21,198 nucleotides of DNA from a virus. Each line of letters opens with the position of its first letter. The first letter of the stretch is position 1. The stretch is taken from IMG/VR virus record IMGVR_UViG_3300007344_000315, positions 1 to 21,198 of that record; one strand, given 5' to 3'. The translations under genes and the position numbers were made by a program. Shown one piece after another: positions 793-17,472 of the stretch. The notes beneath the pieces are model-generated. The model was not told the origin of the DNA, ran no database searches, and saw nothing but the letters and a program-made list of their open reading frames with translations.

Positions 793-1395
793 TCAATTCT
801 CCAAGTGCAATGCGGTTAGCTGTTCTTCCTCGCCAACGTAGCCGACAGGGAAGGTGTTAAAAGATAACGAAATGCGATCTTCTTCTTTAACCGTCTCGAC
901 CATGTGAGTAAGGCTAGAGGGGAAAATCATCAAGTCGCCGGTACCCACTTCAAACCACCACGAATCACTGTTATGCAAGTTGTAGTTGTCGGTCGGCAGT
1001 TTGATTTGCTGGTAGCCATCACGGTAGAAATAAATCTTGTCTCGCTCACGCGCTGCTTTGAGATACAAGACTCCGCTCACAAAAGAATTGGGATGGGCGT
1101 GCTTGTGGTGGAACTCACCGGGTTTCGTGTAGTTGAGCCATGACTGCGTAATCCGCAAGCTGACATCGTTTTTCGGGGCATAGATGGACTTGAGGTATTC
1201 CGCCACAGAGCGTTCGGTAAACTCCCGTAGCTTCGCCATTGTGTCATCGCGCAACACATAGCGATTATTGCTGGTGGTGTTACCCATATTTTTGTGAGTC
1301 TCTTGTGAACCCACAAAGTCCAACTCTTCGGCGCTGAATTCTCGCCCAAGGTCAAACTTGGCAACGGGGGTTGGGAATAGGCTGTAAAGGTTCAA
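793..1395 (-). CDS. 2OG-Fe(II) oxygenase, TIGR02466-like
   Basis: 200 residues. It fits the putative 2-oxoglutarate/Fe(II) dioxygenase family TIGR02466 in length and order of motifs: LFPTPV at the N-terminus (6-11), SWLNYTKPGEF (85-95), HKHAHPNSFVSGVLYL (97-112), LMIFPSSLTHMVETV (155-169) and RISLSFNTF (174-182). H99 and H101, with H164, are the likely iron ligands, and R174 is the likely 2-oxoglutarate-binding arginine. Such enzymes hydroxylate proteins, nucleotides or small molecules, and the substrate here is unknown. The start is a TTG whose last two bases overlap the upstream stop as TTGA, with GGAG 8 bases upstream. No in-frame ATG precedes N37, so TTG is preferred. The position after the fibre genes suggests, but does not prove, a virion protein as target. 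Confidence 0.85.
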   Translation of the reverse strand: MNLYSLFPTPVAKFDLGREFSAEELDFVGSQETHKNMGNTTSNNRYVLRDDTMAKLREFTERSVAEYLKSIYAPKNDVSLRITQSWLNYTKPGEFHHKHAHPNSFVSGVLYLKAARERDKIYFYRDGYQQIKLPTDNYNLHNSDSWWFEVGTGDLMIFPSSLTHMVETVKEEDRISLSFNTFPVGYVGEEEQLTALHLEN

Positions 1396-1646
1396 GCGTT
1401 CATCTCCGCTTCGATTTGTTTGACATGATCATCAAAGGCTTGCTGCTGTTCGGGCAACAGGATCGTATTGATTGATTCTTCAAAGGCTTTGATCTTTTCA
1501 ATGGTTTCCATCACCTCTTCCACAGAGGGCTTTGGCCTCGGATCGTCCCAACGGGTAAACCCCAAACCGCCTGTCCACTCCCACTTCGCACCCGGTCGTA
1601 ACAGATGCACCGCTGTGTCAATGCCCATGATTTGATAAGCCTTCAT
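1392..1646 (-). CDS. Small XkdW-like tail-fibre-associated protein
   Basis: 84 residues. The centre has the pattern LLRPGAKWEWTGG..FTRWDDPRPKPSVEEV, which matches the L-x-P-x-A-x-W...W-x-D...K-P-t-x-E-E layout of small XkdW-like phage proteins. The C-terminal half is a charged helix (IEKIKAFEESIN...EQQQAFDDHVKQIEAEM). These small proteins usually follow tail-fibre or adhesin genes and are thought to help fibre folding or attachment, though direct evidence is limited. Here it lies directly after the glycine-rich tip protein, with a TAATG overlap (1646-1648 stop, ATG at 1646-1644) and AAGGTG upstream. That supports co-translation with the adhesin. The assembly-chaperone role is inferred from family and context. 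Confidence 0.7.
   Translation of the reverse strand: MKAYQIMGIDTAVHLLRPGAKWEWTGGLGFTRWDDPRPKPSVEEVMETIEKIKAFEESINTILLPEQQQAFDDHVKQIEAEMNA
1404..1407 (-). promoter_or_regulatory. Shine-Dalgarno supporting the TTG start at 1395
   Basis: GGAG sits 8 bases upstream of the TTG at 1395-1393, within the last codons of the preceding gene. The TTG shares two bases with that gene's TGA (TTGA). Together these support a coupled TTG initiation for the oxygenase. Confidence 0.5.
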
Positions 1647-3295
1647 TAGTAGTTCACCTTGAGAATGACAATGCCGGAGCCGCCGGAGCCGCCAGCAAAA
1701 ACGGTATCTCCTGCGTCATGACCGCCACCTCCACCGCCACCGCCGGTATTGACGGTGCCTGCTGTTCCAGCCGCACCTAATCCACCTGCACCGCCGCCAC
1801 CGGAACCGCCCGATCCTGCGTTAGTTGATGACCGCCAATTTGATCCGCCACCACCGCCGGCATAAGTCACTGATGAGCCACTAATGGACGAAACAGTACC
1901 ATCGCCTCCGTTACCACCGTTCGTAGAGGTTCCATCTGCGCCTACGGCAGACGCGCCACCGCCACCACCTGCGCCGTAATTCGGAGTTGTAGCAGATGCG
2001 CTTCCTCCATTATTACCTTGAGATGGCGAAGTATTTGGCGTATTTCCTGCCGCACCCGGTACAGCCCCCGGAATACCAGCCCCTGCTCCACCGCCGCCAG
2101 AGCCGCCCGTTTGAGCCGCCGTTAATGTCCCTGCTCCACCTCCACCACCGGTTGAGGTAATGGTGCTAAATACTGAATTAGAGCCGGACGTTCCACCGTT
2201 ACTTCCAACAGTTACCCCAGGCCCACCGGCTCCGCCGGCTCCAACCGTAATCGTATAATCAGTCCCAGCCGTAACGGATAACCCCGTTCCAGTGCGGAAC
2301 CCACCGGCCCCGCCACCGCCAGCAGAATCTCCACCACCCCCGCCGCCACCAGCCACGACAAGGTAGTCCACACTCACCGCACCCGTTGGTGCAGTCCAAG
2401 ATTGCGTGGACTTGAAGGTGAAGACAGATGTTGTTGGGACTTGGTATTTCAGAATGACGATGCCAGAGCCGCCGGAGCCACCCGTTTTGTCTGTAAACGT
2501 CGGTGCTGCTGACTGACCGCCGCCCCCACCACCTCCACCAGTATTTGCGGTGCCAGCCGTTCCGTCAGCAATTGGCTGACCCGCTCCCCCGCCACCAGCG
2601 CCTCCGTTGCCGCCGGTTCCACCACCTTGTCCAGCGCCGCCGCCGCCGCCTGCATAGGTCGCAGACGAACCAGAAATGCTAGATGCGGTGCCATCGCCAC
2701 CGTTACCGCCCGCTGTAGATGTGCCGGCAGACCCAACGGCAGCAGCCCCGCCGCCGCCACCGGCCCCATAATTGGGCGGATCTGCGTTCCCTGTCCCTCC
2801 ATTACTTCCTTGAGATGGAGAAACAACTGGTGTATTGCCGCTACCACCGGGGGCAGGAGTAAAGGTTGCAGAAGGCACATCATAAGTATATGCGCCGCCA
2901 CCGCCAGAGCCGCCATTTGCACCTGTTGAATTTGGGGCCGTGTTACCTGATCCACCACCACCACCGCCATTAGAAGTAATAGTAGAAAATACAGAATTTC
3001 CACCGCTGACACCTCGGGTGTCTCTTGATGATCCGGCCCCACCAGCGCCAACAGTAATTGTGTAGTCAGTCCCACCGGTAACCGAAAGTCCAGTTCCTGT
3101 GCGGAATCCCCCTGCGCCGCCACCGCCACCAGATACACCCCCACCCCCACCCCCACCGGAAACAACGAGGTACTCCACCTCGGTCACATCCGCAGGAGCC
3201 GTCCAAGTACCTGTGGCGAGGAAGGTTTGGATAATCGTGACGTTTCCACCGCCTGCGGCTGCTCTACCGAGCAAAAGCATCATAATTCCAGACAT
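1646..3295 (-). CDS. Tandem glycine-rich tail tip/adhesin protein
   Basis: 549 residues made almost entirely of two similar glycine-rich modules. Module 1 is about residues 23-284 and module 2 about 291-548. Each opens with a beta entry (F-x-x-x-x-x-W-T-A-P, then Y-L-V-V-x-G-G-G-G), has a GGFRTGTGLSVT...DYTITVGAGGAG block, a P-N-Y-G-A-G-G-G-G-G block and a ...GDGT.SSISGSS.TYAGGGGG block, and closes with GGSGGSGIVILK. This is the glycine-rich domain seen in many phage tail proteins. Polyglycine type II helix bundles are known in the phage S16 gp38 adhesin, so a receptor-binding tip is the best reading. The first 20 residues (MSGIMMLLLGRAAAGGGNVT) look like a short attachment segment, not a signal peptide. 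Gly runs are coded by GGN tracts, which makes slippage and domain swapping easy. Confidence 0.8.
   Translation of the reverse strand: MSGIMMLLLGRAAAGGGNVTIIQTFLATGTWTAPADVTEVEYLVVSGGGGGGGVSGGGGGAGGFRTGTGLSVTGGTDYTITVGAGGAGSSRDTRGVSGGNSVFSTITSNGGGGGGSGNTAPNSTGANGGSGGGGAYTYDVPSATFTPAPGGSGNTPVVSPSQGSNGGTGNADPPNYGAGGGGGAAAVGSAGTSTAGGNGGDGTASSISGSSATYAGGGGGAGQGGGTGGNGGAGGGGAGQPIADGTAGTANTGGGGGGGGQSAAPTFTDKTGGSGGSGIVILKYQVPTTSVFTFKSTQSWTAPTGAVSVDYLVVAGGGGGGGDSAGGGGAGGFRTGTGLSVTAGTDYTITVGAGGAGGPGVTVGSNGGTSGSNSVFSTITSTGGGGGAGTLTAAQTGGSGGGGAGAGIPGAVPGAAGNTPNTSPSQGNNGGSASATTPNYGAGGGGGASAVGADGTSTNGGNGGDGTVSSISGSSVTYAGGGGGSNWRSSTNAGSGGSGGGGAGGLGAAGTAGTVNTGGGGGGGGHDAGDTVFAGGSGGSGIVILKVNY
1652..2425 (-). 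repeat. Glycine-rich module 2 of 2
   Basis: Second copy of the module (residues 291-548). It shares the W-T-A-P entry, the GGFRTGTGLSVT block, the PNYGAGGGGG block and the GSGGSGIVILK exit with copy 1. It carries its own unique segment around SNWRSSTNAGSG (residues 485-496), which could be a receptor-facing loop. Confidence 0.75.
2444..3229 (-). repeat. Glycine-rich module 1 of 2
   Basis: First copy of an approximately 260-residue module in the tip protein (residues 23-284). It aligns with the second copy at an offset of 269 residues (W31 against W300, I279 against I542). The copies have diverged most in the middle Gly/Asn/Ser loops and least at the beta entry and exit segments. Confidence 0.75.
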
Positions 3296-4108: not shown

Positions 4109-6022
4109 TCACGAAATAAACCATGCAAAAGCCTCACCACCACCGCCGCCGCCGCCGCCTGATTGCACGACCCACGACAAAGTGCCTGATCCGTTCGTTT
4201 GAAGAACGTACCCACTTGATCCATCTGCCGCAGGCCAAGTATAGGTAACTGATCCTGCTGCGGCTGCGGCTTGGAAACCGACATAACCAGAAGAACTGCC
4301 TAGAAACCGTGCGACTGCGACGTTGATAGAAGATACCGAGGCTTGTGTTGCCGCAAGTGTCGTTGCGGTGGCTGTTGTCAACAACGCCACACCCGCATTG
4401 ATGGACGCCACCGAAGCGCCCGTCGCCGTTAGGTTTGTAACAACTGCCGTATCCGCATTTGCCGAGGTAATGCTGGCCCCTGTGGCGGTCAGCGTTGTAA
4501 CGGCTGCCACGCCGACATTGGCAGACGTCACACTTGCGCCCGTAGCGATCAAGTCGGTCACTACGGCTGTGCCAAGGTTTGCAGAGGCTACCGAGGCACC
4601 AGTTGATGTTAGATTGGTCACCGTGCCGGTGGTAATCAATGCCACCGCTGCGTTAGCTGAAGCGATTGAAGCGCCGGTAGCCTGTAGGTCATTAACAACC
4701 GCTACCCCAACGTTTGCCGAGGCGATAGAAACGCCCGTTAACGTCAGCGCTGAAATCACCGCCGTCCCAAGGTTAGCCGAGGCAATACTTGCGCCGGTTG
4801 CGGTTAATGCCGTAATGGCCGCCACCCCAACATTGGCCGAGGCCGCTGACACGCCTGTCGCTTGCAAGTTGTTTACATTGGCTGACGCAATTGACGCGCC
4901 AGTAACCTGTAAGTTGCCCGCATTGGCTGACGCTATGCTTGCGCTAGTTGCCGTCAAATCCGTCGCAGTAGCCGTGGTTAACAAAGCGACCGCAACATTT
5001 GCTGAAGCAACTGACGCGCTAGTAGCCGTTAAATTGGTTACCGAGCCGGTCGTAATAACGGCTGTACCCACGTTAGCAGATGTTGCGGATGCGTTTGCTG
5101 CCTGCAACGTCGTGATATTGGCAACACCAAAGTTTGCCGAGGCAACCGAAACGTTTGACAAGATTAAATTGCCAACGTTAGCCGACGCAATGGATGCTCC
5201 TGTTGCCGTTAAATTAGTCACGGTTGCGGTTGTTAGCAACGCAACACCTGCATTCATGGAAGCCGCAGAAGCTCCCGTTACGGTCAAGCCGACGATGTTG
5301 GCTGACGTAATTGACGCATTCGTGTTTGTTAAATTGGTAACTACCGCCGTTGCAACGTTGGCAGAGCTGACTGATGCTCCTGTTGCCGTTAGCGCACCCA
5401 CAACGGCTACAGAGGCGTTCATTGATGGCGAGGATACTTCCGCAAGATTTGACTTGCCGGTAACCGTTAACGTGCCATTAATCGTTGTATCGCCGAATGA
5501 GTTGGCGGCGTTAATCATTTGGAATCGAGTGCCGTCGTAGATCACGACAACCATTTCGCCCGAATTGATGTCTCCTGCCGCTAATGCTGTCGCGCCATCA
5601 CGGGTAATGCTTTTTGCACCTAACGAATTGATGTTGAGGGTGACTGCCCCCGTGTTTGCCCCTGCCGCAATGAAATAAAACAATTGACCTGCATCGTAGG
5701 CAGTCAATGTGGGCGACATCACGCCTGTGATCGTGTCAATTCCGCTGATTGATCCAATTAGTTTTGCTGCGGTCGTTTGTACTTGCCCTAACGTTGCCGC
5801 ATCTGATGCCAACGTACCGCTTGCCAAGCTGGTAATTTTGTTGTTGCCCATCGGAATGTTGGCGGTCGGCGTAGATTGGCCATCTTTTGTGATGCAATTC
5901 GTTAAACCCGAGGCCAAATCCGTTGTCAAAGCGTTGAAAACCGTCGCGGATATGACGGTGTTAGCAACGACAGGTTGGCCTGTCGTGTTAATCAAAAACG
6001 TGCCGTTGCCGTTAAAACTCAT
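4109..6022 (-). CDS. Tail fibre with long pentad-register repeat shaft
   Basis: 637 residues. Residues 1-80 (MSFNGNGTFLINTTGQPVVA, then the block TVFNALTTDLASGL, then ITKDGQSTPTANIPMG) match the virion-attachment end of many podovirus and lambdoid tail fibres. Residues about 105-172 are a common fibre beta module ending VVVIYDGTRFQMI. Residues 211-575 are a repeat shaft of 18 units of the type LTATG-ASIAS-ANVGV-AVVTN. Residues 576-620 carry the widespread TWPAADGSSGYVLQTNGSGTLSW end domain. The protein finishes with eight glycines and EAFAWFIS. It presumably trimerises on the tail and points to the receptor-binding proteins encoded downstream. AGGAG lies 9 bases before the ATG. The large plus-strand open frame opposite the repeats is a shadow. 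Confidence 0.85.
   Translation of the reverse strand: MSFNGNGTFLINTTGQPVVANTVISATVFNALTTDLASGLTNCITKDGQSTPTANIPMGNNKITSLASGTLASDAATLGQVQTTAAKLIGSISGIDTITGVMSPTLTAYDAGQLFYFIAAGANTGAVTLNINSLGAKSITRDGATALAAGDINSGEMVVVIYDGTRFQMINAANSFGDTTINGTLTVTGKSNLAEVSSPSMNASVAVVGALTATGASVSSANVATAVVTNLTNTNASITSANIVGLTVTGASAASMNAGVALLTTATVTNLTATGASIASANVGNLILSNVSVASANFGVANITTLQAANASATSANVGTAVITTGSVTNLTATSASVASANVAVALLTTATATDLTATSASIASANAGNLQVTGASIASANVNNLQATGVSAASANVGVAAITALTATGASIASANLGTAVISALTLTGVSIASANVGVAVVNDLQATGASIASANAAVALITTGTVTNLTSTGASVASANLGTAVVTDLIATGASVTSANVGVAAVTTLTATGASITSANADTAVVTNLTATGASVASINAGVALLTTATATTLAATQASVSSINVAVARFLGSSSGYVGFQAAAAAGSVTYTWPAADGSSGYVLQTNGSGTLSWVVQSGGGGGGGGEAFAWFIS
4298..5392 (-). 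repeat. Pentad-register repeat array in the fibre shaft (18 units)
   Basis: Residues 211-575 divide into 18 contiguous units beginning L-x-x-x-x followed by A-S-x-x-S and A-N-x-x-x. Unit lengths in order are 20, 15, 25, 15, 20, 25, 25, 15, 15, 20, 20, 20, 25, 20, 20, 20, 25 and 20 residues. Every unit is a multiple of five, so the whole array is 73 pentads (365 residues) without a register break. At the DNA level the units are 45, 60 or 75 bases. Confidence 0.85.
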
Positions 6023-6028
6023 CTGTGC

Positions 6029-8041
6029 TTACTCCTGTGCCGTAAACGCGCCTGCGCGCCCCGCTAATTGACCCGCTAACGCCTGCTGACGCCGCCGCCG
6101 CTCCATGTAAGCGCGTACATCGCGTAATTCTTGCTGCGCGGGTTCATCGGACAATAACAACATCTGCGCTAATCGATTGCGCGTAGGCTCTGGCATCGAT
6201 AGTTGCGAGAACTTACGCGCCGCTCTTGTTGCGAGTGGAACTCCACCGCCCTGCGCAGCCTGCGCTAGATCAATCGCGTCCATAAACTGCGACTGATCCT
6301 CTGCGCCTGCTAATCTTTGCGCTGTTTGCGATCCTCGGCCCAAACGCTCCACTTCTTTCAGCTGTTCTTGCTGCAAAATGGTTTTTTGGAATTGCCGGAA
6401 ATTGTTACCGAATATCGTACGCAATCGGCCTTGCAATGCAGGCTCTTTGTAAAGATTTAACAATCGGGTTTGACCTGCTTGACCGCCCGCTAAATCGCGG
6501 ATCGCTTGGGCTGCGCCTAATCGAAATGCCTCAAGCTCCGCAGCGTCAAGACTGCCGACAATTTCATCTAATTGTTCCACATCCTCGCGCATTGCTTGAC
6601 GCCCTCGCGTCATCGCGGTTTCTAACTGCGCTTGCGATTGAAATGCCTCTCGGGCTTGACGATAAATGCTTTGCCCTGCGTCATCTTTTGGCGATAACGC
6701 ATCTAGCTTTTCAGTAAATTCGCGGCGCAAATTACTATAGTTGCGGCTTAAATTTGATGGTCGCCCAAATTCACCTTTTGCGCTGTCTTCAATGTCGTAT
6801 AACGCGCGCTTTAAGTTATCAAGCACCGAGAACGGAATGCGGTCACCGACTTTTAAACTTCCAAGGTTCAATGATTCAGGCGTCCCGCCAACCAGTGCCA
6901 ATTCTTCAGCTTTACCAAATGCTTTGCGCGAACGCTGAAGCAACGTTACCAATTCTGCATCAACGGGAACATCCACATTTTCTAGTTGCGCGTAAAACGG
7001 AGCCGCTTGCGCTTGTTTCTGACGCGCAAACTCTTGCAACGTTGCTCTAAACGGCAGTCCCTGCGCGCCTAACGCTTCTTCTGCGCCTGAAACAATAGCG
7101 GGGCCACGTTCTGCCGCAATTTCTCGCCCTTTGCGTCGAACTTGGGTCTGGGCAGTGCCAGGCAAAACCGCCAATAAATCTAACTCTCGTTGCGCTTCTT
7201 GCCCTGTGGCGGCTATCGGCGCATTGGGGCCAAGCTGACGCAATCGCGCTTGTGCAACATCAACCGGCTCACCAGCGCCCATGCGCCGTGCTTCGGCATC
7301 GCGGGCCAATAACTGCGCGAGGCGTTCCCGCGCTTCGTTAATTTGGATGGGTTCGTCAATGCCTGGCACTCGCGCACCAATCTGGCGACCGACCATGCCC
7401 AACCCTTTGCCACCAAGGCCGAATGCACCACCGTAGGCTGTACCTTCAGCCGTACCCATCGCAATGTCGCGCATCATGTCTATCGGCGCTTCGGCTTCGG
7501 TTTCACCTGCTGCCGTAATGGCGCTGGTTGCGGTAACGGGTTTTAAAAATTCCACCCCGCGTCGTAACGCTCCCATGCCTGCACGCGCACCGCCGCCTAA
7601 CGTGAAAGGAGCGGTCAACAATGCGCCGCCAAATTGCGTTGCCATTGCCGCACCAGGCTCGTCTTTTTCGTACTGCTCTGTTGCGCCGCGCACGGCCTCT
7701 CTAGCGGGCATTGTGACCTGTTCTGGCCGCATCGTCGGCGCGGGTTGCCCTGCATATCCTGCACCGGCATACGCGCCCGCTGTGCCTGCTGTAGCGCCTA
7801 AAGCGGCAAGTTCGTCGGCAAACCCAAATGCGCCACCGCGCAGAGCTTGCAATGTCGCTTTGGTGCTAGTGGGAAGGCGCGCACCGGCCTCTCGCGCTTC
7901 TACGCGCTGCATATCCGGCGCTGGGCCTGTCTCTTGAGCCAACGCTTGCTTGTACGCTTCCGCGACTGTGGCGAATTCCTGACTGCCCGCCTTGTCTTGG
8001 TTAGCGACGATCCACTTTGCGTAATCTTGTGCGGTAGGCAT
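6029..8041 (-). CDS. Large internal virion / DNA-ejection protein
   Basis: 670 residues. The start MPTAQDYAKWIVANQDKAG and the following EFATVAEAYK resemble the N-terminus of large proteins encoded upstream of tail fibres in many podoviruses. Three Gly/Ala-rich stretches follow, about residues 68-98, 129-160 and 195-224, with glycine-zipper spacing (FGGALL, GTAEGTAYGGAFGLGGKG). They could insert into a membrane. Residues about 230-640 are charged and largely helical (ARERLAQLLARDAEARR, LKRALYDIED, FRQFQKTILQQEQLKEVERL). I see no lytic transglycosylase motif. By size, position and membrane-prone plus coiled-coil build, it fits a T7 gp16-type or P22 gp16/gp20-type ejection protein, but I cannot assign it to one family. 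The gene is 3 bases from its upstream neighbour. Confidence 0.65.
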   Translation of the reverse strand: MPTAQDYAKWIVANQDKAGSQEFATVAEAYKQALAQETGPAPDMQRVEAREAGARLPTSTKATLQALRGGAFGFADELAALGATAGTAGAYAGAGYAGQPAPTMRPEQVTMPAREAVRGATEQYEKDEPGAAMATQFGGALLTAPFTLGGGARAGMGALRRGVEFLKPVTATSAITAAGETEAEAPIDMMRDIAMGTAEGTAYGGAFGLGGKGLGMVGRQIGARVPGIDEPIQINEARERLAQLLARDAEARRMGAGEPVDVAQARLRQLGPNAPIAATGQEAQRELDLLAVLPGTAQTQVRRKGREIAAERGPAIVSGAEEALGAQGLPFRATLQEFARQKQAQAAPFYAQLENVDVPVDAELVTLLQRSRKAFGKAEELALVGGTPESLNLGSLKVGDRIPFSVLDNLKRALYDIEDSAKGEFGRPSNLSRNYSNLRREFTEKLDALSPKDDAGQSIYRQAREAFQSQAQLETAMTRGRQAMREDVEQLDEIVGSLDAAELEAFRLGAAQAIRDLAGGQAGQTRLLNLYKEPALQGRLRTIFGNNFRQFQKTILQQEQLKEVERLGRGSQTAQRLAGAEDQSQFMDAIDLAQAAQGGGVPLATRAARKFSQLSMPEPTRNRLAQMLLLSDEPAQQELRDVRAYMERRRRQQALAGQLAGRAGAFTAQE

Positions 8042-8044
8042 AGT

Positions 8045-9436
8045 TTAAAACCCTGATCGACGCAGAATTTCGTTGGCTTGATCAAACACTGGGTTAGCGC
8101 CGCTTGGCGTTTTGCGGGTTGGACGTTCAAACGGTCGCTTACGCACGCCGTATGGCGCTTGCAGTTGGTAATACCAATCCAGATCGCCGCTATTAATGCG
8201 TTCGTTGACCGCATCTAAATTGTTTTCCAACACTTTAGCGCGCAGTTTAGTCATTTCCCTTAACGTTTCATTGTCTAACTGTCGCGTACCCGTCATCACG
8301 TTGAGCAAAAATTCTCGTTCTGCTTCAGTGTCCAATCCTCTTGAGCCAATGCCTAACGATTGGATGTAACTAAACACTTCAGAACCTAACAACGCATCCA
8401 ACAATTGACTGTCAGATACTTGCGATGACGGCTGACCCGTAAACATGCTCTTAAGCCGTTCACCCATCAAACGAATATCTGCGCCAACACCTGTAATGGG
8501 CTGCCCCTGCTCAAGCAAATCTAGCGCCCGATAGGTTTTTTCTAACCCCTCTTGCGCTTTTTTCGCGTTGGTTAATTGTGTTTGCGTGGCTGCAACGTTT
8601 TCCTTCAACAATTGCGCTTGCATTTCTTGCTGCGCTCTTGGTGACAAATTGGCAAAGCCCGTTGTTGGTGGAGGCTGCGGTGTGGGTTGCCCAAAAGTCT
8701 GCGGGCCTACCATAAAGTTTGGCATTCCTGTGGTTGGAAACGGTTGACCCGTGTCAAAGGTAAATCGGCCTACGTCAAGCCCCAATTGAATTCTTTGCTG
8801 CTGCGTTAATTCTGCGTATTCACGCGGCTTCAATAGCGTGTAATTAGGCGTGCCTCCCTTCACGCTTGCATCAAACTGCTCCAAACTTTCAGACGTAAAT
8901 TTAGAGGGATCAATTGAGCCATAAGGCGATTTATCCTTTTCCGGCTCTTTTAGCATCATCGCCAACCGCTCGGCCATAATCGGTCGATCTTTCAGCGCAT
9001 CCGCCCCGAGCTTGGTGGACGCCATCGCCAATGCCTCTTGTGGCGAACGCACATACTGCGATTGCCGCGTGACTTCGCCGAGTTCCGTCTGCTCGGGAAT
9101 GGGTGCTGGGGGTTTGCTAGGATCGTAACCTTTGTAAACGTAACCGCCTTCCATGCGGCCTAACATGCGCTGCGCGTAATCCTCTTTCATGCCCTCTGCG
9201 GCTTCCTCGGCCTCGCGTGCTTTTCTGCCTGCACGGCCCGTCATGTAGCCCTGTAACGCCTTTACAAGCGGTGCAGCGCGAGGGATGGGGGCAACAACAC
9301 CCTCCTGCGGCTCATACTGCTGCTGCGCGAGGGCTTCCGCTAATGCCGCGCGACGACGCGCTTCCTCAAGCTGCCGTTCGTACTCGCTCGGTGCGCGGAA
9401 CGTGCTGACGTAACGAACAGGGTCATTCCTGGCCAT
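8045..9436 (-). CDS. Probable internal virion protein
   Basis: 463 residues from the ATG at 9436. An alternative TTG at 9442 is only 3 bases from the GAGGAG, so the ATG (spacing 9) is preferred. The N-terminus (residues 15-45 and 70-95) is a charged Arg/Glu/Ala helix. The middle (225-262) is Pro/Gln/Phe-rich and probably flexible. Residues 265-310 are helical. Residues about 340-425 carry a pattern seen in several podovirus structural proteins: SQLLDALLGSEVFSYIQSLG, then RGLDTEAEREFLLNVMTGTR, then a helix ending NSGDLDWYYQ. The protein ends ANEILRRSGF. No enzyme motif is visible. Position between the S74 protein and the largest ejection-type protein supports an internal or ejected virion component. 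The function itself is not recognisable from sequence. Confidence 0.65.
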   Translation of the reverse strand: MARNDPVRYVSTFRAPSEYERQLEEARRRAALAEALAQQQYEPQEGVVAPIPRAAPLVKALQGYMTGRAGRKAREAEEAAEGMKEDYAQRMLGRMEGGYVYKGYDPSKPPAPIPEQTELGEVTRQSQYVRSPQEALAMASTKLGADALKDRPIMAERLAMMLKEPEKDKSPYGSIDPSKFTSESLEQFDASVKGGTPNYTLLKPREYAELTQQQRIQLGLDVGRFTFDTGQPFPTTGMPNFMVGPQTFGQPTPQPPPTTGFANLSPRAQQEMQAQLLKENVAATQTQLTNAKKAQEGLEKTYRALDLLEQGQPITGVGADIRLMGERLKSMFTGQPSSQVSDSQLLDALLGSEVFSYIQSLGIGSRGLDTEAEREFLLNVMTGTRQLDNETLREMTKLRAKVLENNLDAVNERINSGDLDWYYQLQAPYGVRKRPFERPTRKTPSGANPVFDQANEILRRSGF

Positions 9437-9812
9437 AGTCAAAATCTCCTCGATAGCCGCCTCCCTGCGGCGTTGTCATGCCAGCCGGTGACGGCATACG
9501 CGGTCGCATTGGTGGGCCACCTACCTGCGGTGACATTTGCGGCATTCCCATCTGCGGGCGGTTCATACCCATCTGTGGGCGGTTAACGCCTAGCCCCGGC
9601 TGCATCGTTGTCATCGGGCCATTAAAATTCATTGCCTGTGGCGGCATGCCAGAGGCGGCGTTTGGCGTGGCTTGGCCGTAGCCTAACCCCGGCATTTGCC
9701 GCATTCCCATGTCGCGTTGTCCTGCCGGTGCCGTCAACATTTGGTTTCGCTCTTGGGCGGCTAGCATTTGCGCTAACTGTTGCGGTCGGCGGTCTGGTGT
9801 AAATCCGTTCAT
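9423..9812 (-). CDS. Small Met/Pro/Gly/Gln-rich low-complexity protein
   Basis: 129 residues. After a short helical start (PQQLAQMLAAQERNQML), the rest is disordered-looking and dominated by Met, Pro, Gly and Gln, with two exact NRPQMGM copies (residues 77-83 and 84-90) and further PQM and PPMRPRMP variants. No known domain is recognised. It has a proper AGGAG 7 bases before the ATG (overlapping the TAG of the upstream gene), and its tail overlaps the next gene by 14 bases, so it is a genuine part of the operon. Small flexible proteins between ejection-type genes may act as linkers or as minor internal virion proteins. That role is only inferred. Confidence 0.65.
   Translation of the reverse strand: MNGFTPDRRPQQLAQMLAAQERNQMLTAPAGQRDMGMRQMPGLGYGQATPNAASGMPPQAMNFNGPMTTMQPGLGVNRPQMGMNRPQMGMPQMSPQVGGPPMRPRMPSPAGMTTPQGGGYRGDFDYGQE
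9446..9451 (-). promoter_or_regulatory. Shine-Dalgarno deciding the start at 9436
   Basis: GAGGAG lies 9 bases before the ATG at 9436-9434 but only 3 bases before the alternative TTG at 9442, so it favours the ATG. It sits within the coding end of the preceding small gene. Confidence 0.55.
9543..9584 (-). repeat. Two tandem heptapeptide copies (NRPQMGM)
   Basis: A 21-base unit is present twice in succession. It codes for NRPQMGM at residues 77-83 and again at 84-90, followed by a partial copy PQM. The third-base differences between copies show they are not a sequencing duplicate. Confidence 0.8.
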
Positions 9813-9822
9813 CAGTTAGCTC

Positions 9823-12420
9823 CTAAAGTAATCCGTAATTGACCATCTTGTAGCCGCTTGAGTGTGTCGCCACGGCTTCTGGCATCACCGTTTCTACTTC
9901 GTCGGCCATCACGCCACGTTGCCGTTCGCCAAAGATGTCGTATTCGTAGATGCCTATGCCGAGCGGATGCGTGCCAACGCGCACGACGTTAGATTTCAAG
10001 CGGCGATCTGAAAATAATCCCGCGATGCTGCCTGCCCCGCCAATAGCCGTACCGGCTGCGCCCGCTAGGCTCCCCAACATGCCCATGCCCGCGTTGTATG
10101 CGCCGACTTGGTTGGCATAGTTCTGTTGTGCAAAGTTGCCCGCAGCCTGACCTGCTTGGAAAATCGGCGGTGGCGCTACGTTCACGCCGCTATAGCCTTG
10201 GAATTGCGGCACGCTGACCTGACCACCTGACAACAACGCGCTGATCTCATTGACGGGCATAGATCGTATGGCGGCTTGCTGTGCCAACGCTTGCTGGGCT
10301 GCCGTATTTTGGAATTGCGCTTGCGCCAACGCCTGATTATATTGCTGCTGTTGCAACGCATTCAGCGTGTTGAAGTAATCTAATTCCGTCTGCTGACGTT
10401 GCGCCAGTGCCGCATTTTGCGCGGCCTGAATGTCCATCTGCTGCCCAAAGCGCTGCTGCTGGGCGGCGTTCGCGGCAGCCTGATAAGCCAACTCCTGCTG
10501 ATAGGCTTGTGCTTGCGATTGGTTGTAGAACTGCGCAAGTTCTTGCGATTCCCGAGATTGTTGCGCCTGTCGCGCCAAATTGGCTTGCTGCGCACCCACC
10601 ATTTGCTGAAAGTTTTGCGCTGCCGCTGCGTTTTGCAATTCTTGTTGCGTAACGCCTTGCCCAAAAATCTGTTGCAACGCTTGGTTTTGCGCTTCAGTCT
10701 GCGCGAGCGATTGCTGATAGTTCTGTGCGATGGCTTGATTAGCCAGCTCCTGCGCCGACTGACCCATGCCAAACTGTTGCAACAACGCTTCGCGGTTAAA
10801 CTGACCCGCCCCCAACGCTTGCTGATAGTTCTGCGCCATTGCAGCGTTCTGCGCTTGTTGCGACGCTAGGGCTTGCTCAAAGTTCTGCCCCATCGCCTGA
10901 TTTTGCATCTGCTGCGCGGCTTGCGCCTGTGCAAAATTTTGTGCGATAGCTTGATTTGCGGCTTGTTGTGCTTGCTGTTGTGTACCAAATGAAGCCAACT
11001 GCGCCTCTTGGCCAAATTCACCCGCTTGCAGACGTTGCTGAAACGCCTGTTGCTGCGCTTGGTTCTGCGCGGCCTGCGTGGCAAGTGATGATTGCAAATC
11101 TTGTTGCGCGCCAAGGTTATAAAGCCCTGCCTGCTCCATGCCTGCACCAAAGCCCGACAAAGCGGCTTGATTGGCAAACATGGCGCGAGATTGTTGCTCG
11201 GCAAACTGCTGTTGACGCGCCGCTTGATCAAGGCTAATACCTTGCGCAGCAGCTTGCAGAATCAAATCGTTTTCCTTCTGCATTTGCGCTGACATGGCAG
11301 CGTTGTACGCCTCACCGCCCGGTCGCAAACCCTGATTGATTAACTGCGTTTGAAGTTGCTGACGCTCGGTGGCGATCTGTGGCGACAAACGCGACATAAT
11401 CGCCTGCTGCGCTGTCATTCCTGCGTTAACTGGGCCTTGCGCGATACCTGAAACATCAATCTGCCCTTGTAATTGCGGGCCTTGCACAAACCGTTGGGCG
11501 TAGCCAAATTCACCCTGTTGCGGGCCGCCCGCTACGCCGCCAAGACCTGACAGATTAAGCCCTTGTAAATTTAAACCTTGCGGGCCTGCGCCAGCTAATC
11601 CGTACAAACCGCCGGATGGGCCGCCTTGCGCGGTGCCAAATGCTTGCCCGCTCGGTGCGCTTTGCGCGGCAAATTGACCCGCCTGCAATTGCCCCAAATC
11701 AGTCGGAGCGGCAGGGCCAGCGCCTGCACGACCGTAATACTCTGATCCAGGCGCCATAATTGCACCTTGAATCGGCACATCCGCCCTCGCCTGCTGGCCT
11801 TCGTTAACAGGCTGTGGTAACAAATCGGTGGGATACGCTGAAACAACTGAAAACGGTGCCGTTGGCGCGCCTTCAATTGCACCACCCGCGCCTTGTTGCA
11901 ACGCTTGCGCCTGTCCCCAATTGGTGATGTTGGTGGGGCGAGAAACCGCATCGTATGGGCCGATTGCGCCATACACTAAATTAGGAATGTCTGTCGGACG
12001 AAACGCTGACGCAATACCGAGGTCACCTAATCCTGATGCCGCACCCGCTGCGGCTTTTGACATGTAAAACTGCGCGAGTTCTTGCTGCCGTAGCGCTGCC
12101 TCCGCATCAGGGTTGATGGTTTGTCTAACCGTTGGCTGCTCAATAAACGTTGTAAAATCTTCCTGTGATGGCTGCGCCCCTGCATATTGCGGGTTAGTCA
12201 TCATGTTTTCGCGCCACTGCTGCATCGCCTTGTTGTAGGCGTCTGTGTCAATAGTCGGCGTCTTCGTCCAAGTCACTTCCTGCGACCCCGTGGGGCCGTA
12301 GATGTTGGGATTGGACATATAGGCCGATTGCTTGGCGGCTGCCAAGTTGGCCTCACCCTGTTTAACAGCTAGGGTGGCGTAATCAGGTGCTGGCGGCGGT
12401 GCCGGTGATTTTTTGCCCAT
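9823..12420 (-). CDS. Gln/Ala-rich rod protein with C-terminal S74 intramolecular chaperone
   Basis: 865 residues. It starts MGKKSPAPPPAPDYATLAVK. Residues about 150-330 are Gly/Gln/Pro-rich with repeated GLNLQGLNLSGLGG-type loops. Residues 381-722 are nineteen contiguous 18-residue helical units rich in Gln, Ala and Asn. Residues about 775-803 are a Gly/Ala hydrophobic segment (AGAAGTAIGGAGSIAGLF). The last 62 residues are a Peptidase_S74 intramolecular chaperone domain: S804-D-R-R-L-K809 gives the Ser-Lys pair with the spacing known from endosialidase chaperones, followed by GVMADEVETVMPEAV and YKMVNYG. The domain normally trimerises a fibre and cleaves itself off before the Ser. The location among ejection-type genes, not fibres, suggests a tail or ejection component. 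GGAG precedes the ATG by 7 bases. The first 38 bases lie inside the GNAT-like gene. Confidence 0.8.
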   Translation of the reverse strand: MGKKSPAPPPAPDYATLAVKQGEANLAAAKQSAYMSNPNIYGPTGSQEVTWTKTPTIDTDAYNKAMQQWRENMMTNPQYAGAQPSQEDFTTFIEQPTVRQTINPDAEAALRQQELAQFYMSKAAAGAASGLGDLGIASAFRPTDIPNLVYGAIGPYDAVSRPTNITNWGQAQALQQGAGGAIEGAPTAPFSVVSAYPTDLLPQPVNEGQQARADVPIQGAIMAPGSEYYGRAGAGPAAPTDLGQLQAGQFAAQSAPSGQAFGTAQGGPSGGLYGLAGAGPQGLNLQGLNLSGLGGVAGGPQQGEFGYAQRFVQGPQLQGQIDVSGIAQGPVNAGMTAQQAIMSRLSPQIATERQQLQTQLINQGLRPGGEAYNAAMSAQMQKENDLILQAAAQGISLDQAARQQQFAEQQSRAMFANQAALSGFGAGMEQAGLYNLGAQQDLQSSLATQAAQNQAQQQAFQQRLQAGEFGQEAQLASFGTQQQAQQAANQAIAQNFAQAQAAQQMQNQAMGQNFEQALASQQAQNAAMAQNYQQALGAGQFNREALLQQFGMGQSAQELANQAIAQNYQQSLAQTEAQNQALQQIFGQGVTQQELQNAAAAQNFQQMVGAQQANLARQAQQSRESQELAQFYNQSQAQAYQQELAYQAAANAAQQQRFGQQMDIQAAQNAALAQRQQTELDYFNTLNALQQQQYNQALAQAQFQNTAAQQALAQQAAIRSMPVNEISALLSGGQVSVPQFQGYSGVNVAPPPIFQAGQAAGNFAQQNYANQVGAYNAGMGMLGSLAGAAGTAIGGAGSIAGLFSDRRLKSNVVRVGTHPLGIGIYEYDIFGERQRGVMADEVETVMPEAVATHSSGYKMVNYGLL
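10255..11280 (-). repeat. Nineteen contiguous 18-residue (54-base) helical repeats
   Basis: Residues 381-722 can be cut into nineteen 18-residue units with no insertion or deletion. The best consensus is N-Q-A-x-A-Q-N-F-x-Q-x-L-x-x-x-x-x-Q. Position 8 is Phe or Tyr in 13 units, Leu in 4-type variants at the ends, and Ser or Gln in two units. Position 1 is Asn in most units. At DNA level the period is 54 bases. Confidence 0.75.
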
Positions 12421-12826
12421 ACCTTGGCTCCAAATATCGACACCGTTCGGGTGTCTGCGTCATCAAAACAATATCTCCAGAGTCATGCGCGGCATCCTTT
12501 ATCCGCGCTTCCTCGGAAAAGCCCATTTTGCTGACCAATTTAAGCGCTCGGGTATGATTGCTACTGATTGGCCCTATTATCTTATCAACTCCTGCGACGT
12601 TGTACGCATAATCGTATATCGCCGCAATATAGGTGGGCGTTACGCGGTGCCACGCAATGTGACACACCAATGACCGCCCGTTCCAATTCTCAAATACCGT
12701 CCCTGCGACCAATTCGCCGTCGCGTTCTAATCCAATGGCGACCGATCTTTCAGGCCAAAACGCCCCGTTGGTATGGTCAACCACCCAGAAGCCCACTTCA
12801 GGGCCGTTTACGATGCGCCAGCCCAT
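12383..12826 (-). CDS. GNAT-like virion-cluster protein
   Basis: 147 residues with the order of a small GNAT fold: a strand IGLERDGELVAGTVFENW (31-48), LVCHIAWH (53-60), a helix TYIAAIYDYAYNVAGV (65-80), KIIGPISSNHTRALKLVSKMGF (82-103) and a last strand DIVLMTQTPERCRYL (118-132). The N-R-A-L-x-L...M-G-F end pattern is the most typical part. The classical acetyl-CoA loop R/Q-x-x-G-x-G/A is not visible, so catalysis is doubtful. GNAT-like proteins are found at this place in podovirus maps, between nozzle and ejection proteins, and T7 gp13 has been described as of this type. The gene overlaps the nozzle gene by 19 bases and the S74 gene by 38 bases. No good Shine-Dalgarno precedes the ATG, so coupling to the nozzle gene is likely. 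Confidence 0.7.
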   Translation of the reverse strand: MGWRIVNGPEVGFWVVDHTNGAFWPERSVAIGLERDGELVAGTVFENWNGRSLVCHIAWHRVTPTYIAAIYDYAYNVAGVDKIIGPISSNHTRALKLVSKMGFSEEARIKDAAHDSGDIVLMTQTPERCRYLEPRYGQKITGTAAST

Positions 12827-14385
12827 CCTAATTGGTACACCACGTCAGTGGATGCCCACTCCAATGTCACGTTTTTGCTACTACTGTTGAAAACAAGACC
12901 GCCGCAATAGCCAATACCTTGGATGCCGACAAAGTTGTTGGTAATGATGATGTCAGCACCCCACACTGACTGATTCCACAAGCCAACGTCCCACAACCCG
13001 TACTGCGTTGCGACAAATGACAAGGCACCCAAATCCGCGTCGGTCTGAAAATCAACGTTCATGCCAATATCAATGGTCGGCTGGCCGTTGCTGTAGATTG
13101 TGGGTCGTGCGCGGGTAAAGTATTTTATTACTCCACGCGTCTCAAAGTAGTTAAAAGCCTGCAAGGCGCGAGTGGAAATCGCTAGATTGTCGTCGTTAAA
13201 GCCTGTAGCGCCTGATCCTGTCGTCCAAGCCTCTGCAACATAGCCATCACCGCCGAAATACGGTTGATCGTTTAACAACGCAAAACAATTAGCCGCCCAA
13301 CCCGTGAATCGGCACCACGCTTTTGTAATGTTATTCATCACAAATTGCTGTTGATTGCCGACTGACACGGGAACGTTAACAATCAAGGCGTTATTGAGCG
13401 GGTTGTACAATAACCCCCATCCAAAGTTTGTTTTGTATTGTCGAGCCGCCTCTGCAAACGCTCCTTGGATTTTGTCAGACAGCGCTACTTGTGGGTCTAA
13501 TCTTGATGATTGCAAGGCAGACGCAAATGGCACCAAACCATCTAGGGTCAAGATCAGCAAATCACCGCCGTACTTTTGAACGCACCGCCGAGAAATAGGC
13601 GAACCGACTACCCAAACGCCAATCAACGCCCATGTGGATGCGTTAGAAGGATCAGTGCCGCGATAAACAATGACTTCGCCTTGATCCGTAATAAATACCA
13701 AGTTGTCATCAACCCCGTAGCCTGCGTCAATCGTCCACGACGCCATTGCGACCAAGCTGCCGCCTAGATGGGCGACTGATGACAAATCTAACGTGTTGGC
13801 GGCCCCACCTACGGATGCGGTCGGCAAATACCACGCCTTCAAGGTATCTTTTTGAATAAACCACATCCTGTTTTTAAACAGGGTTGGTTGAATTAGCGTA
13901 GTTGTGGTAACGCCAGTAATTGCGGGTGAAGATACGCCATCAATGGCTGTCCAAGTGCTGCCGTCATACAGCAAGGGTTTATCAACGCCATTGGCGGCAT
14001 ACAAATACCCACCGCCTGCGGTCGTGATGTTGGTGTATTCCCATCGGCTATTGCTTAAGCTGCTAACTTCTGCTGCTCCAACAGCACCCGCTGTGGTGAC
14101 ATCAAAAATTTCACCGCTCGCCACGGCAAACATTTCATCTGTTGCCCCAGCGTTGTACACCAACAAACTCTCAACCTGACCCGTGATGCCTGTGGCATGT
14201 TTGGTAAAGCCACCCCGCAACGAAACGCTTGATACGCCGGGAAATAAATTATCTAGCGTTACCGCATCCGTTGGTGCCATGTTGGCCAATGAATCGCGCG
14301 CGTTCCAACCGCCCACAGGGGCAGGCAACGACGCTACATTGTTCGTCGTGCGCTGAATCAACCGCCTGCGAACAGGTGATGCCAT
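12808..14385 (-). CDS. Tail nozzle / packaged-DNA stabilisation protein
   Basis: 525 residues. It starts MASPVRRRLIQRTTNNVASL and continues PAPVGGWNARDSLANMAPTD and LDNLFPGVSSVSLRGGF, the usual entry of podovirus stabilisation or nozzle proteins. The body is made of beta-strand blocks such as GGYLYAANGVDKPLLYDGST, MWFIQKDTLKAWYLPTASVGG, DNLVFITDQGEVIVYRGTDP and GGDLLILTLDGLVPFASAL, as expected for a beta-propeller like P22 gp10 or T7 gp12. The C-terminal part (about 400-525) is a separate beta domain. It would sit below the adaptor ring and close the tail tube. The ATG overlaps the adaptor stop codon (TAATG). No enzymatic motif is visible. Assignment to the gp10 or the gp12 type needs structure prediction. 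Confidence 0.8.
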   Translation of the reverse strand: MASPVRRRLIQRTTNNVASLPAPVGGWNARDSLANMAPTDAVTLDNLFPGVSSVSLRGGFTKHATGITGQVESLLVYNAGATDEMFAVASGEIFDVTTAGAVGAAEVSSLSNSRWEYTNITTAGGGYLYAANGVDKPLLYDGSTWTAIDGVSSPAITGVTTTTLIQPTLFKNRMWFIQKDTLKAWYLPTASVGGAANTLDLSSVAHLGGSLVAMASWTIDAGYGVDDNLVFITDQGEVIVYRGTDPSNASTWALIGVWVVGSPISRRCVQKYGGDLLILTLDGLVPFASALQSSRLDPQVALSDKIQGAFAEAARQYKTNFGWGLLYNPLNNALIVNVPVSVGNQQQFVMNNITKAWCRFTGWAANCFALLNDQPYFGGDGYVAEAWTTGSGATGFNDDNLAISTRALQAFNYFETRGVIKYFTRARPTIYSNGQPTIDIGMNVDFQTDADLGALSFVATQYGLWDVGLWNQSVWGADIIITNNFVGIQGIGYCGGLVFNSSSKNVTLEWASTDVVYQLGWAGAS

Positions 14386-15868: not shown

Positions 15869-16696
15869 TTACAGGTTGTTGACCTGTGTTACGGTACAAA
15901 TGATTGAGGGAGTCGCCGGCCATACGCTTGTGGCGGTGGCCGCTAAAACTACAACGTTAGGGTCATCTGCCGCCCACATTAATTCTACATAATGCGTGGG
16001 TTCTAGCTGGATAACAAAATTCCATGCCGCAACTTGACGCGCCGCAGTGCCTTGTAGTGTCAATGTGGTGGTGGTGTTTGGCACGTTCGTGCCGTTTTTG
16101 CGTAGCCAGATATAAACATCGGCTGCGCCGCCTGACGCTTTATCTAACTGCGCTGAAAATTGCACGTTGTAGACGCCTTGGTTGTCTACCACTAACCGCG
16201 AAGAAGGCGAACCGATAGACACGCCGTTACTGCTGTCTGTCGTGTCAAATGTCATCGCGTATGCCGTATTGATACTTACAATGGTTTGTGTGGTGGTGTC
16301 TGAAAATGCGCCGTAGTGAAGAATTGGCACAGAGCGGCCAAACGCCTGCAGTTCTTCCCACAACGTATTGGTCACGGCATAAAACATGGCCGAGCAAGTA
16401 CTGTTTATGGTTCCAAAACCCGCCGTATTAATTGTGCTGTTTGTATCATACGGGTAAACCGTCAGTGGATTTGCGCCACCATTTCGCACAATGATGGTTT
16501 CGCCCGCTTCCGTTGGCGGCAATTTGACGCCAGCGCCTACGCCGGTCGTTGTGACATTGTTATAAACATAACTAATTTGCGTGGCATCGCCTGCTGACGT
16601 GCCAGCGGCGGTCACACTTGCGTTACCATCGCCGCATATTGCGATGGTGGACAGGCTGTTAACGCCTGATCCTAATACGCGAGAAGGAATGGCCAT
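15869..16696 (-). CDS. C1q/TNF-like jelly-roll virion protein
   Basis: 275 residues in two modules. Residues 1-120 start MAIPSRVLGSGVNSLSTIAI and include VGAGVKLPPTEAGETIIVRN and NPLTVYPYDTNSTIN...MFYAVTNTLWEEL, a beta module also seen in phage fibres. Residues about 125-275 look like a C1q/TNF jelly roll: YAMTFDTTDSSNGVSIGSPS, RLVVDNQGVYNVQFSAQLDK, ADVYIWLRKNGTNVPNTTTT, VAAWNFVIQLEPTHYVELMW and a final ATPSIICTVTQV. Such domains trimerise and are used by phages in decoration or head-fibre proteins and spikes. Because it is encoded among head genes, before the adaptor, a capsid or head-fibre role is more likely than a tail one. That is inference. TAATG overlap with the upstream gene indicates coupling. 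Confidence 0.7.
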   Translation of the reverse strand: MAIPSRVLGSGVNSLSTIAICGDGNASVTAAGTSAGDATQISYVYNNVTTTGVGAGVKLPPTEAGETIIVRNGGANPLTVYPYDTNSTINTAGFGTINSTCSAMFYAVTNTLWEELQAFGRSVPILHYGAFSDTTTQTIVSINTAYAMTFDTTDSSNGVSIGSPSSRLVVDNQGVYNVQFSAQLDKASGGAADVYIWLRKNGTNVPNTTTTLTLQGTAARQVAAWNFVIQLEPTHYVELMWAADDPNVVVLAATATSVWPATPSIICTVTQVNNL

Positions 16697-17472
16697 TATG
16701 CTGCCTGCGCCCGCTCACCACGAACGCGCATAATTTCAGCAATCAACCCTGGGCCTTTAACGTCTACCGTTATATCGCCCATCACGTCAAATAACTTTTG
16801 GAATTCGTTAGCCTGTTGGGCCATCGCCATATTACAGTTGAACTTTTTGCCGCTTGGGCCACCTACCCAAATGTCAATGGCAGGGCCGGTATGCTCGCCC
16901 GTGAAACGTTTTAATCCATCCGCTCGATTGCAACTGTCATAGCCATACATCACAAAGTTGCGAAAGCCGAGCAAATAGCCAATGTTGATAGCGCGCAGTC
17001 CCGAGGTCGTCCCACCGCCCACAGCAAGTTTGCCAGGCCCAACGGCTTGCATTTCAGGGCCATCTGCCCATGAATGCCACAACCAAACATTTTTACCCTT
17101 TAAATAGTCAAACGTCACCGCAGGGCAACGCGATGCCACCATGTACACCGTGCGTGCATTGGCTTTTTGAATGCCGCTAGTGCGATCACGCGGGTCAAGG
17201 TTGACCCACATATCCGGCTCAACGCCGTTATCACATAAAAAATCGTGCGCTGCTTTGATTGCCACAATCGGCAAACCTGCGCGACGGTGCGCCTTGATGT
17301 CATCAATAAAGTCAGGCATTGACCACCCGCTTGCCACTAGCACCATCGTGCCGTTGTGCTTAATCGGAACGGGCGTTAATTCTGGTAGACCACGGGCAAG
17401 CGCCGAGCGGATGTTGGTGCATAACTCCTCATCCGTTCCCGCCGCCTGCACCGTGATCTCCAGAGGGTGCAT
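16696..17472 (-). CDS. DUF115 / MptE-like protein (nucleotide-sugar or pterin-enzyme fold)
   Basis: 258 residues. The motifs of the DUF115/MptE-like family are present in order: a first Rossmann-like strand and loop TMVLVASGWSMPD (42-54), IVAIKAAHDFLCDNGVEPDM (69-88), the acidic NLDPRD (91-96), GGGTTSGLRAINIGYLLGF (152-170) and FVMYGYDS (173-180). Related bacterial proteins (Maf type) are needed for flagellin glycosylation, and the archaeal MptE is a pterin pyrophosphokinase. The reaction of phage members is not established. The position between the decoration-like and jelly-roll genes is unusual for an enzyme and suggests modification of a capsid component, or use of the fold structurally. 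No signal peptide or membrane helix is seen. The Shine-Dalgarno is weak. The gene starts 2 bases after the preceding stop. Confidence 0.75.
   Translation of the reverse strand: MHPLEITVQAAGTDEELCTNIRSALARGLPELTPVPIKHNGTMVLVASGWSMPDFIDDIKAHRRAGLPIVAIKAAHDFLCDNGVEPDMWVNLDPRDRTSGIQKANARTVYMVASRCPAVTFDYLKGKNVWLWHSWADGPEMQAVGPGKLAVGGGTTSGLRAINIGYLLGFRNFVMYGYDSCNRADGLKRFTGEHTGPAIDIWVGGPSGKKFNCNMAMAQQANEFQKLFDVMGDITVDVKGPGLIAEIMRVRGERAQAA

Follow-up and report, generated by a model that had tools for sequence, protein, structure and literature searches.

A predicted phage virion protein with a quantised 18-residue helical rod and a Gly/Pro-rich segment locked to it in length

Introduction

Among the closest described systems are the ejection proteins of phages P22 and T7. 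The slot held by P22 gp7 and T7 gp14 encodes an outer-membrane pore protein of 181–240 residues; T7 gp14 is known, in part, as a hexameric helical outer-membrane channel, and the N-terminal portion of T7 gp16 (gp16-N) forms a "molecular tape" on the gp15 tunnel (PMC8954989). In phage phiGT1, the proteins IVPB and IVPD match syntenic genes of phage Mx8 (PMC10386132).

The window analysed here, a 21.2-kb virus record, carries its genes in the order portal, scaffold-like, capsid, ..., tail tube A-like, nozzle, GNAT-like acyltransferase, stalk protein, 129-residue protein, 465-residue protein, 670-residue protein and fibre-like genes (Table 1). This parallels the P22 order 14-7-20-16 and is shared with Mx8 (p53-p54-...), phiGT1 (16-17-18), EBPR podovirus 2, ppBjS10J-1 and a Manatee Spring phage. 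The gene of the stalk protein lies between the GNAT-like gene and the two larger ejection-slot genes, a gp14/gp7-type position. A preliminary description of the window had suggested a tail or ejection setting for this protein, and the gene order supports the ejection slot. However, at 865 residues the stalk protein is outside the size range of gp14/gp7-type proteins, and P22 gp7 (phrog_598, as against phrog_6121 for the stalk protein) shows no profile similarity to it (hhalign probability 0.2%). The ejection role therefore rests on gene order, and the stalk protein is filed beside gp7 by position and likeness of mechanism only. The main finding reported here is a locked length ratio between two stretches of this one chain, a helical rod and a Gly/Pro-rich segment (S).

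Results

The domain layout of the stalk protein and its neighbouring genes are listed in Table 1. Segment S is rich in Gly, Pro and Ala, the rod in Gln and Ala, and the hairpin between them carries the motif RLSPQ...GLRPGGEAY...QKEND. The phrog_6121 profile matches the stalk protein with an E value of 6.9e-45, the best stretch being residues 636–864, and spans the full length of one relative (L200). Relatives were gathered by six scans of viral contigs, and those of the rod family range from approximately 299 to 1064 residues; a scan of genome contigs yielded only four distant ones. Searches of Pfam, NCBIfam, PHROGs, PDB sequences and Foldseek returned no named family for the rod or for S, in agreement with the earlier view that the repeat lacks a family name. 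Foldseek matches among predicted viral structures are unnamed "intramolecular chaperone" proteins of uncultured phages, and among the papers searched none matched 18-residue coiled coils. The stalk architecture is not described by any known family.

Table 1. Coordinates of the stalk protein, its parts and other genes of the window
Feature	Coordinates	Strand	Remarks
Stalk protein, 865 aa	9823..12420	-	phrog_6121 "virion structural protein"
N-terminal domain, aa 1-130	12031..12420	-	MGKKSPAPPPAPDY motif, helix, beta strands, helix; kept across relatives; AF2 pLDDT ~55-91
Segment S, aa 100-343	11392..12123	-	First helix, then Gly/Pro-rich non-helical part at ~aa 140-330; length tracks rod
Hairpin tip, aa 344-381	11278..11391	-	RLSPQ...LINQGLRPGGEAYNAAMSAQMQ; AF2 pLDDT 74-87
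Rod, 19 units x 18 residues, aa 382-723	10252..11277	-	Conserved anchors, autocorrelation
C-terminal domain, aa 724-803	10012..10251	-	NEISALLSGGQV...PQF motif and Gly-rich hydrophobic tail, ending ...AGLF
Short Peptidase_S74 intramolecular chaperone domain, aa 804-865	9826..10011	-	Pfam; C-terminus lengths of relatives
GNAT-like acyltransferase, directly upstream of stalk gene	12383..12826	-	Counterpart of P22 gp14 / T7 IVPA; phiGT1_16 annotation
Tail nozzle / tubular tail B protein (phrog_5107)	12808..14385	-	Length constant as rod varies
465-aa protein	8045..9442	-	P22 gene 20 / T7 gene 15 slot by gene order; length independent of rod
670-aa protein (phrog_5880)	6029..8041	-	P22 gene 16 / T7 gene 16 slot; length independent of rod
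129-aa Met/Pro/Gly/Gln-rich protein	9423-9812	-	21-nt repeat at 9543-9584; overlaps start of 465-aa gene; syntenic with Mx8 p55
637-aa fibre-like protein	4109-6022	-	~14-residue ATGASIASANVG-type repeats; N-terminal 90 aa match phrog_13989 virion structural protein
549-aa Gly-rich protein	1646-3295	-	Two Gly_rich_2 (PF21722) copies; phrog_2295; among fibre-like genes
MptE-like (PF01973) protein	16696-17472	-	Between capsid and tail genes, podovirus structural module
275-aa protein	15869-16696	-	Weak, below-cut-off BclA_C (PF18573) match; adjoins MptE-like gene
2OG-Fe(II) oxygenase (PF13759; phrog_81)	793-1395	-	Near end of structural genes

The proposal of 19 uninterrupted units is borne out: the rod divides into ungapped 18-mers, with an 18-residue autocorrelation of z ~7–9. 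Residue identities peak at lags of 18, 36 and 54 (z 6.9, 6.9, 6.4), and aromatic residues at 9, 18, 36 and 54 (z 5.3, 7.4, 8.6, 9.5), showing a 9-residue sub-period as well. The conserved anchors start the rod one residue later than first given (aa 382–723 instead of 381–722). Phe or Tyr occupies position 8 of the original numbering, and Asn position 1, in 14 of the 19 units each, and 29 of the 342 rod residues are charged, so that the aromatic, Asn and low-charge features noted at the outset all hold. Lag 7 is depleted (z −3.7), and the rod is therefore not a heptad coiled coil. As Tandem Repeats Finder reports no tandem repeat in the rod-coding DNA, the 18-residue period is maintained at the protein level.

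On a helical wheel of 308 units, one face comprises F/Y7 (82% aromatic), L/M/V11 and N18, and the opposite face Q5 (89%), Q9 (70%), A2 (78%) and A/F/L16. The aromatic stripe of the preliminary description corresponds to the F/Y-L-N face and is half of the picture, the Q-Q-A-L/F face having been missed. Fully extended, the rod would be a straight helix of about 51 nm (342 × 0.15 nm), the length originally estimated; AlphaFold predicts it as helical at low confidence.

Rod length is quantised. Among the 158 distinct sequences of the clade carrying PVNAGMT(A/G)Q, the distance between GxEAY in the hairpin and NEI is exactly 14 + 18u residues in 154, with u values of 3–14, 16–20, 22, 23, 25, 26, 28 and 29. 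Insertions of other lengths, which would have spoken against a fixed repeat, are confined to the remaining four, with 4 additional residues in three sequences and 11 in one, approximately one or three helical turns. In more distant relatives the same distance is 43, 46, 50, 57, 61, 64, 68 or 136 residues; these rods differ by steps of 3, 4, 7 and 11, which keep the helical phase and thus argue that one continuous helix joins the hairpin and the NEI motif.

The length of S, taken between the Q-T-[LI] strand and the hairpin, grows by approximately 10.7 residues (10.6–10.8) with each added rod unit (r = 0.9998, n = 108 members). It is 73 residues at u = 3, 83 at u = 4, 94–95 at u = 5, mostly 103–107 at u = 6 and 130 at u = 8, rising to 219–222 (u = 17), 241–244 (u = 19), 273–277 (u = 22), 304–309 (u = 25) and 339 (u = 28). 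Slopes fitted separately are 10.77 residues per unit at u ≤ 8 and 10.79 at u ≥ 16. Beyond the clade, relatives whose rods are short or odd have approximately 10.0 residues of S per 18 rod residues. Phylogenetic independent contrasts, using a tree built from the conserved parts (N-terminus, hairpin and C-part) without S and rod, gave a slope of 10.74 (r = 0.999); the ratio is fixed over a roughly ten-fold rod range (u 3–29) and at least 41 independent rod-length changes. The line S = 41.86 + 10.59u, fixed beforehand, predicted 37 members fetched later with a mean error of 0.56 residues (s.d. 4.0). The single outlier among these (L337, u = 28) has an S that is 20 residues short.

Other lengths do not follow the rod. 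The R-to-G distance within the hairpin is 24 residues in all 102 members measured, and at u ≥ 16 the lengths of the N-terminal and C-terminal parts correlate with the rod at r 0.04 and −0.23. The tail adaptor (300–305 residues) and nozzle (509–529 residues) are nearly constant while the rod varies, and the 129-, 465- and 670-residue proteins show no trend matching rod length, with weak correlations between clades. A ruler for tail or tunnel length was rejected, given that the nozzle, adaptor, 465- and 670-residue proteins lack matching covariation. In a relative from a Rhodobacteraceae MAG (L170), a long Pro-rich segment stands in the place of S, with approximately 255 residues for a 93-residue rod; the length rule therefore fails in some distant relatives.

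Near-identical pairs (rod identity 0.91–0.98, S identity 0.81–0.97) differ by matched insertions of 1 unit and 11 residues, 2 and 20, 3 and 31, 6 and 62, or 9 and 93. Counted from the hairpin, the two insertions of a pair have similar positions, which mostly agree to within one to three units. Between L050 and L337, for example, an insertion of six units sits 5.9 units away from the hairpin, and one of 62 residues in S at the 5.0-unit position. A second, two-unit rod insertion in L337 has no partner in S, either a real mismatch or an assembly fault, and accounts for the outlier above. Insertion positions correlate at 0.98 over 27 event groups, with a slope of 9.85 residues per unit. Within u ≥ 16 the correlation is 0.97 for the seven cleanest classes and weaker at loose identity thresholds, where several indels overlap and make the test noisy, and the clean near-identical pairs were preferred in its place; the register is therefore less secure than the length coupling. 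The simple reading of the matched insertions is that S and the rod would pair antiparallel. Synonymous divergence between the two insertions is somewhat above that of the upstream part in seven of seven near-identical pairs, and above that of the downstream part in six of seven, so some insertions may come from swaps of the whole distal end.

S is periodic at a lag of 32 (z 15.7) and also at 16, with a 31–32-residue superperiod in long relatives. In the rod, similarity is highest between a unit and the third one along (0.38, vs 0.29 for neighbours). Three units (54 residues, 81 Å) therefore match one S superunit (31–32 residues). Since one unit is 27 Å of helix, S would advance by 2.5 Å per residue, a rise too large for a helix and too small for a straight strand. 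A strand wound once per three units round a trimer, at a radius of ~10 Å, would fit, although this is arithmetic and not evidence. AlphaFold monomers consist of a long helix and coil, with pLDDT of ~30–60 for S and rod; in these models the strand is not packed on the rod, and S is coil of very low confidence. Searches of the models with Foldseek and VIA-align found no known fold. Middling helical VIA-align matches, including the Cyanophage A4 pre-ejectosome (9k2v, Z 4.7), were treated as uninformative.

The C-terminal Peptidase_S74 (PF13884) match scores 23.1 bits against a gathering cut-off of 22, with similar or better scores in relatives. S804 and K809, five residues on (SDRRLK), are a candidate catalytic pair, the Ser and Lys of SDxRLK being catalytic in S74 domains. 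The motif, SD-x-[RN]-[LMVI]-K, is present in 88 members, and the domain is missing from 66. Members lacking it end 70–85 residues after NEI, and elsewhere the S74 serine lies 69–88 residues after NEI; the tree implies at least 26 gains or losses of the domain, always near the predicted cleavage point. This pattern fits a putative cleavage before S804 that would leave a hydrophobic, Gly-rich C-terminus; P22 gp7 likewise ends in a Gly-rich hydrophobic stretch.

Discussion

We consider it probable that the protein forms an antiparallel strand–helix hairpin stalk with an invariant tip and modular length, and that it is, by gene order, the first ejection (internal virion) protein. From the N-terminal domain the chain would run out as an extended strand rich in Gly and Pro (S), turn at the conserved helical hairpin tip, and return to the C-terminal domain as a straight α-helix of 18-residue units (five turns, 2.7 nm each). 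Strand and helix would run antiparallel and in register, with ~10.7 strand residues of 2.5 Å per unit; in such an arrangement rod and strand must lengthen together, and we have good confidence in a physical cause of this kind for the length lock. In a putative oligomer the helices would pack via the F/Y-L-N face, with the strand probably held on the opposite Q/A face. The distance between the invariant tip and the body, ~10 to 80 nm in different members, would be set by rod length. After ejection the stalk probably unfolds or extends and becomes part of the path through the envelope, and the S74 domain, where carried, would fold the oligomer and release itself by cleavage at S804, so that the chain ends in the hydrophobic tail. 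Several points weigh against this reading: in the AlphaFold monomers the strand is not packed on the rod, P22 gp7 lacks profile similarity, rods above ~50 nm are too long to lie straight in a T=7 head, and two rod units of L337 have no counterpart in S. The straight helix, ejection setting and want of a family name in the preliminary description stand, while the covariation of S, the hairpin tip and the range of u from 3 to 29 had escaped it.

Two other arrangements differ in where and in what number the rods would act. Rods longer than ~50 nm would not fit straight inside a T=7 head, so rods of 43–80 nm in phages with contigs of at most ~37 kb favour either extension after ejection or an external position. 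The latter would be a trimeric fibre or whisker, with a homotrimeric straight rod wrapped by three S strands, the N- and C-terminal domains on the tail, the tip pointing outward, and S74 acting as in tail fibres. S74 domains typically occur on trimeric fibres and spikes, weak PHROG tail-fibre matches come through the S74 part, lengths of 43–80 nm suit a fibre, and the superperiod of three units per 32 residues would equal one wrap per 81 Å, giving a radius of ~10 Å at 3.3 Å per residue as a matter of calculation. We nevertheless find an external fibre unlikely: the gene sits in an ejection-protein order, with separate genes for fibre-like proteins further downstream (4109–6022 and beyond), many members lack S74 and have a hydrophobic Gly-rich end as in P22 gp7, and short relatives (262–360 residues) are nearly rodless. 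Lengths of up to ~80 nm exceed the Gram-negative periplasm, the other tunnel proteins do not covary with the rod, and there is no sequence similarity to gp7; these points make it doubtful that the rods are staves of a hexameric or larger DNA-conducting barrel leading from the tail through the outer membrane, with the strands as surface tapes in the manner of T7 gp15/gp16. Such a tube would, however, make use of the two opposite conserved helix faces, which suit side-by-side packing, and has precedents in the hexameric gp14 channel and the gp16-N tape on gp15 (PMC8954989).

The coupling itself could be a by-product of recombination, in which the distal part of the gene is swapped between phages whose S and rod were already correlated by descent. 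The raised synonymous divergence between insertions is a hint of such tip-swapping, but crossovers would be needed at matching positions every time, the changes on the tree (at least 41) hold one slope, and distant relatives share the ratio. Recombination would account for how the lengths change, not for why the ratio persists, and we judge it highly improbable as the origin of the coupling. Functionless length drift of a Gln/Ala rod and a Gly/Pro linker, with quantisation by unequal crossing-over of the repeat, would sit well with the low-complexity composition and is almost certainly wrong. The DNA is not a tandem repeat, independent drift cannot yield r 0.9998 between separated segments or matched insertion positions, and the regression, independent contrasts and out-of-sample prediction contradict it.

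If the antiparallel strand–helix hairpin stalk is correct, it may, more tentatively, represent a new modular fibre class. Its module would be 18 helical and ~10.7 extended residues zipped antiparallel, perhaps in a trimer with one strand turn per three modules, and gain or loss of whole numbers of modules would vary the stalk between ~10 and 80 nm while leaving the tip as it is, and would give an adjustable reach for genome delivery. The 2.7 nm per unit would quantify the reach, if such it is, of an ejection protein; the proteins so far reviewed from this slot scarcely differ in size. This is also a rare instance of a physical pairing predicted from sequence alone, and a modular, length-programmable rod would be directly testable by structural biologists and designers.

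Among known systems, the stalk protein is most readily compared with the group of Mx8 p54, phiGT1_17 and phrog_6121, with which it shares the gene slot, N-terminal domain, hairpin motif (GSEAY) and Gly-rich hydrophobic C-terminal end; an NEI-type motif (N-x-I-x-AL-x-SG-x-QV) is found in several members and S74 in some. The syntenic proteins of the five annotated phages differ in being 282–342 residues long, with hardly any rod and lacking a Gly/Pro segment. P22 gp7 and T7 gp14 are likewise encoded by the first ejection gene after the GNAT-like gene, and gp7 has a similar Gly-rich hydrophobic C-terminus, but both types are of near-constant size (181–240 residues; PMC8954989) and lack repeats, the profile comparison having been made with gp7.

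The S74 domain resembles the endosialidase-type intramolecular chaperone (PF13884) in its C-terminal position, its score above the Pfam cut-off and the Ser–Lys spacing of SDRRLK, with weak structural matches to 3gud, 3gw6 and the MyRF ICA (7dc3). Unlike the usual chaperone of this type, it is short (62 residues), follows a helical rod instead of a β-fibre, and is optional within the family. The periplasmic tunnel of T7 gp15 and gp16-N offers only a works-like analogy, in which helical staves are bound by an extended "molecular tape" (PMC8954989); there, tape and stave are separate proteins and have no repeat. Canonical heptad and hendecad coiled coils share with the rod a long helix with a hydrophobic stripe. 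In contrast, the stalk rod has an 18/5 period (3.6 residues per turn, untwisted), a Gln/Ala-rich composition, a second conserved Gln face and, as predicted here, a partner strand in the same chain.
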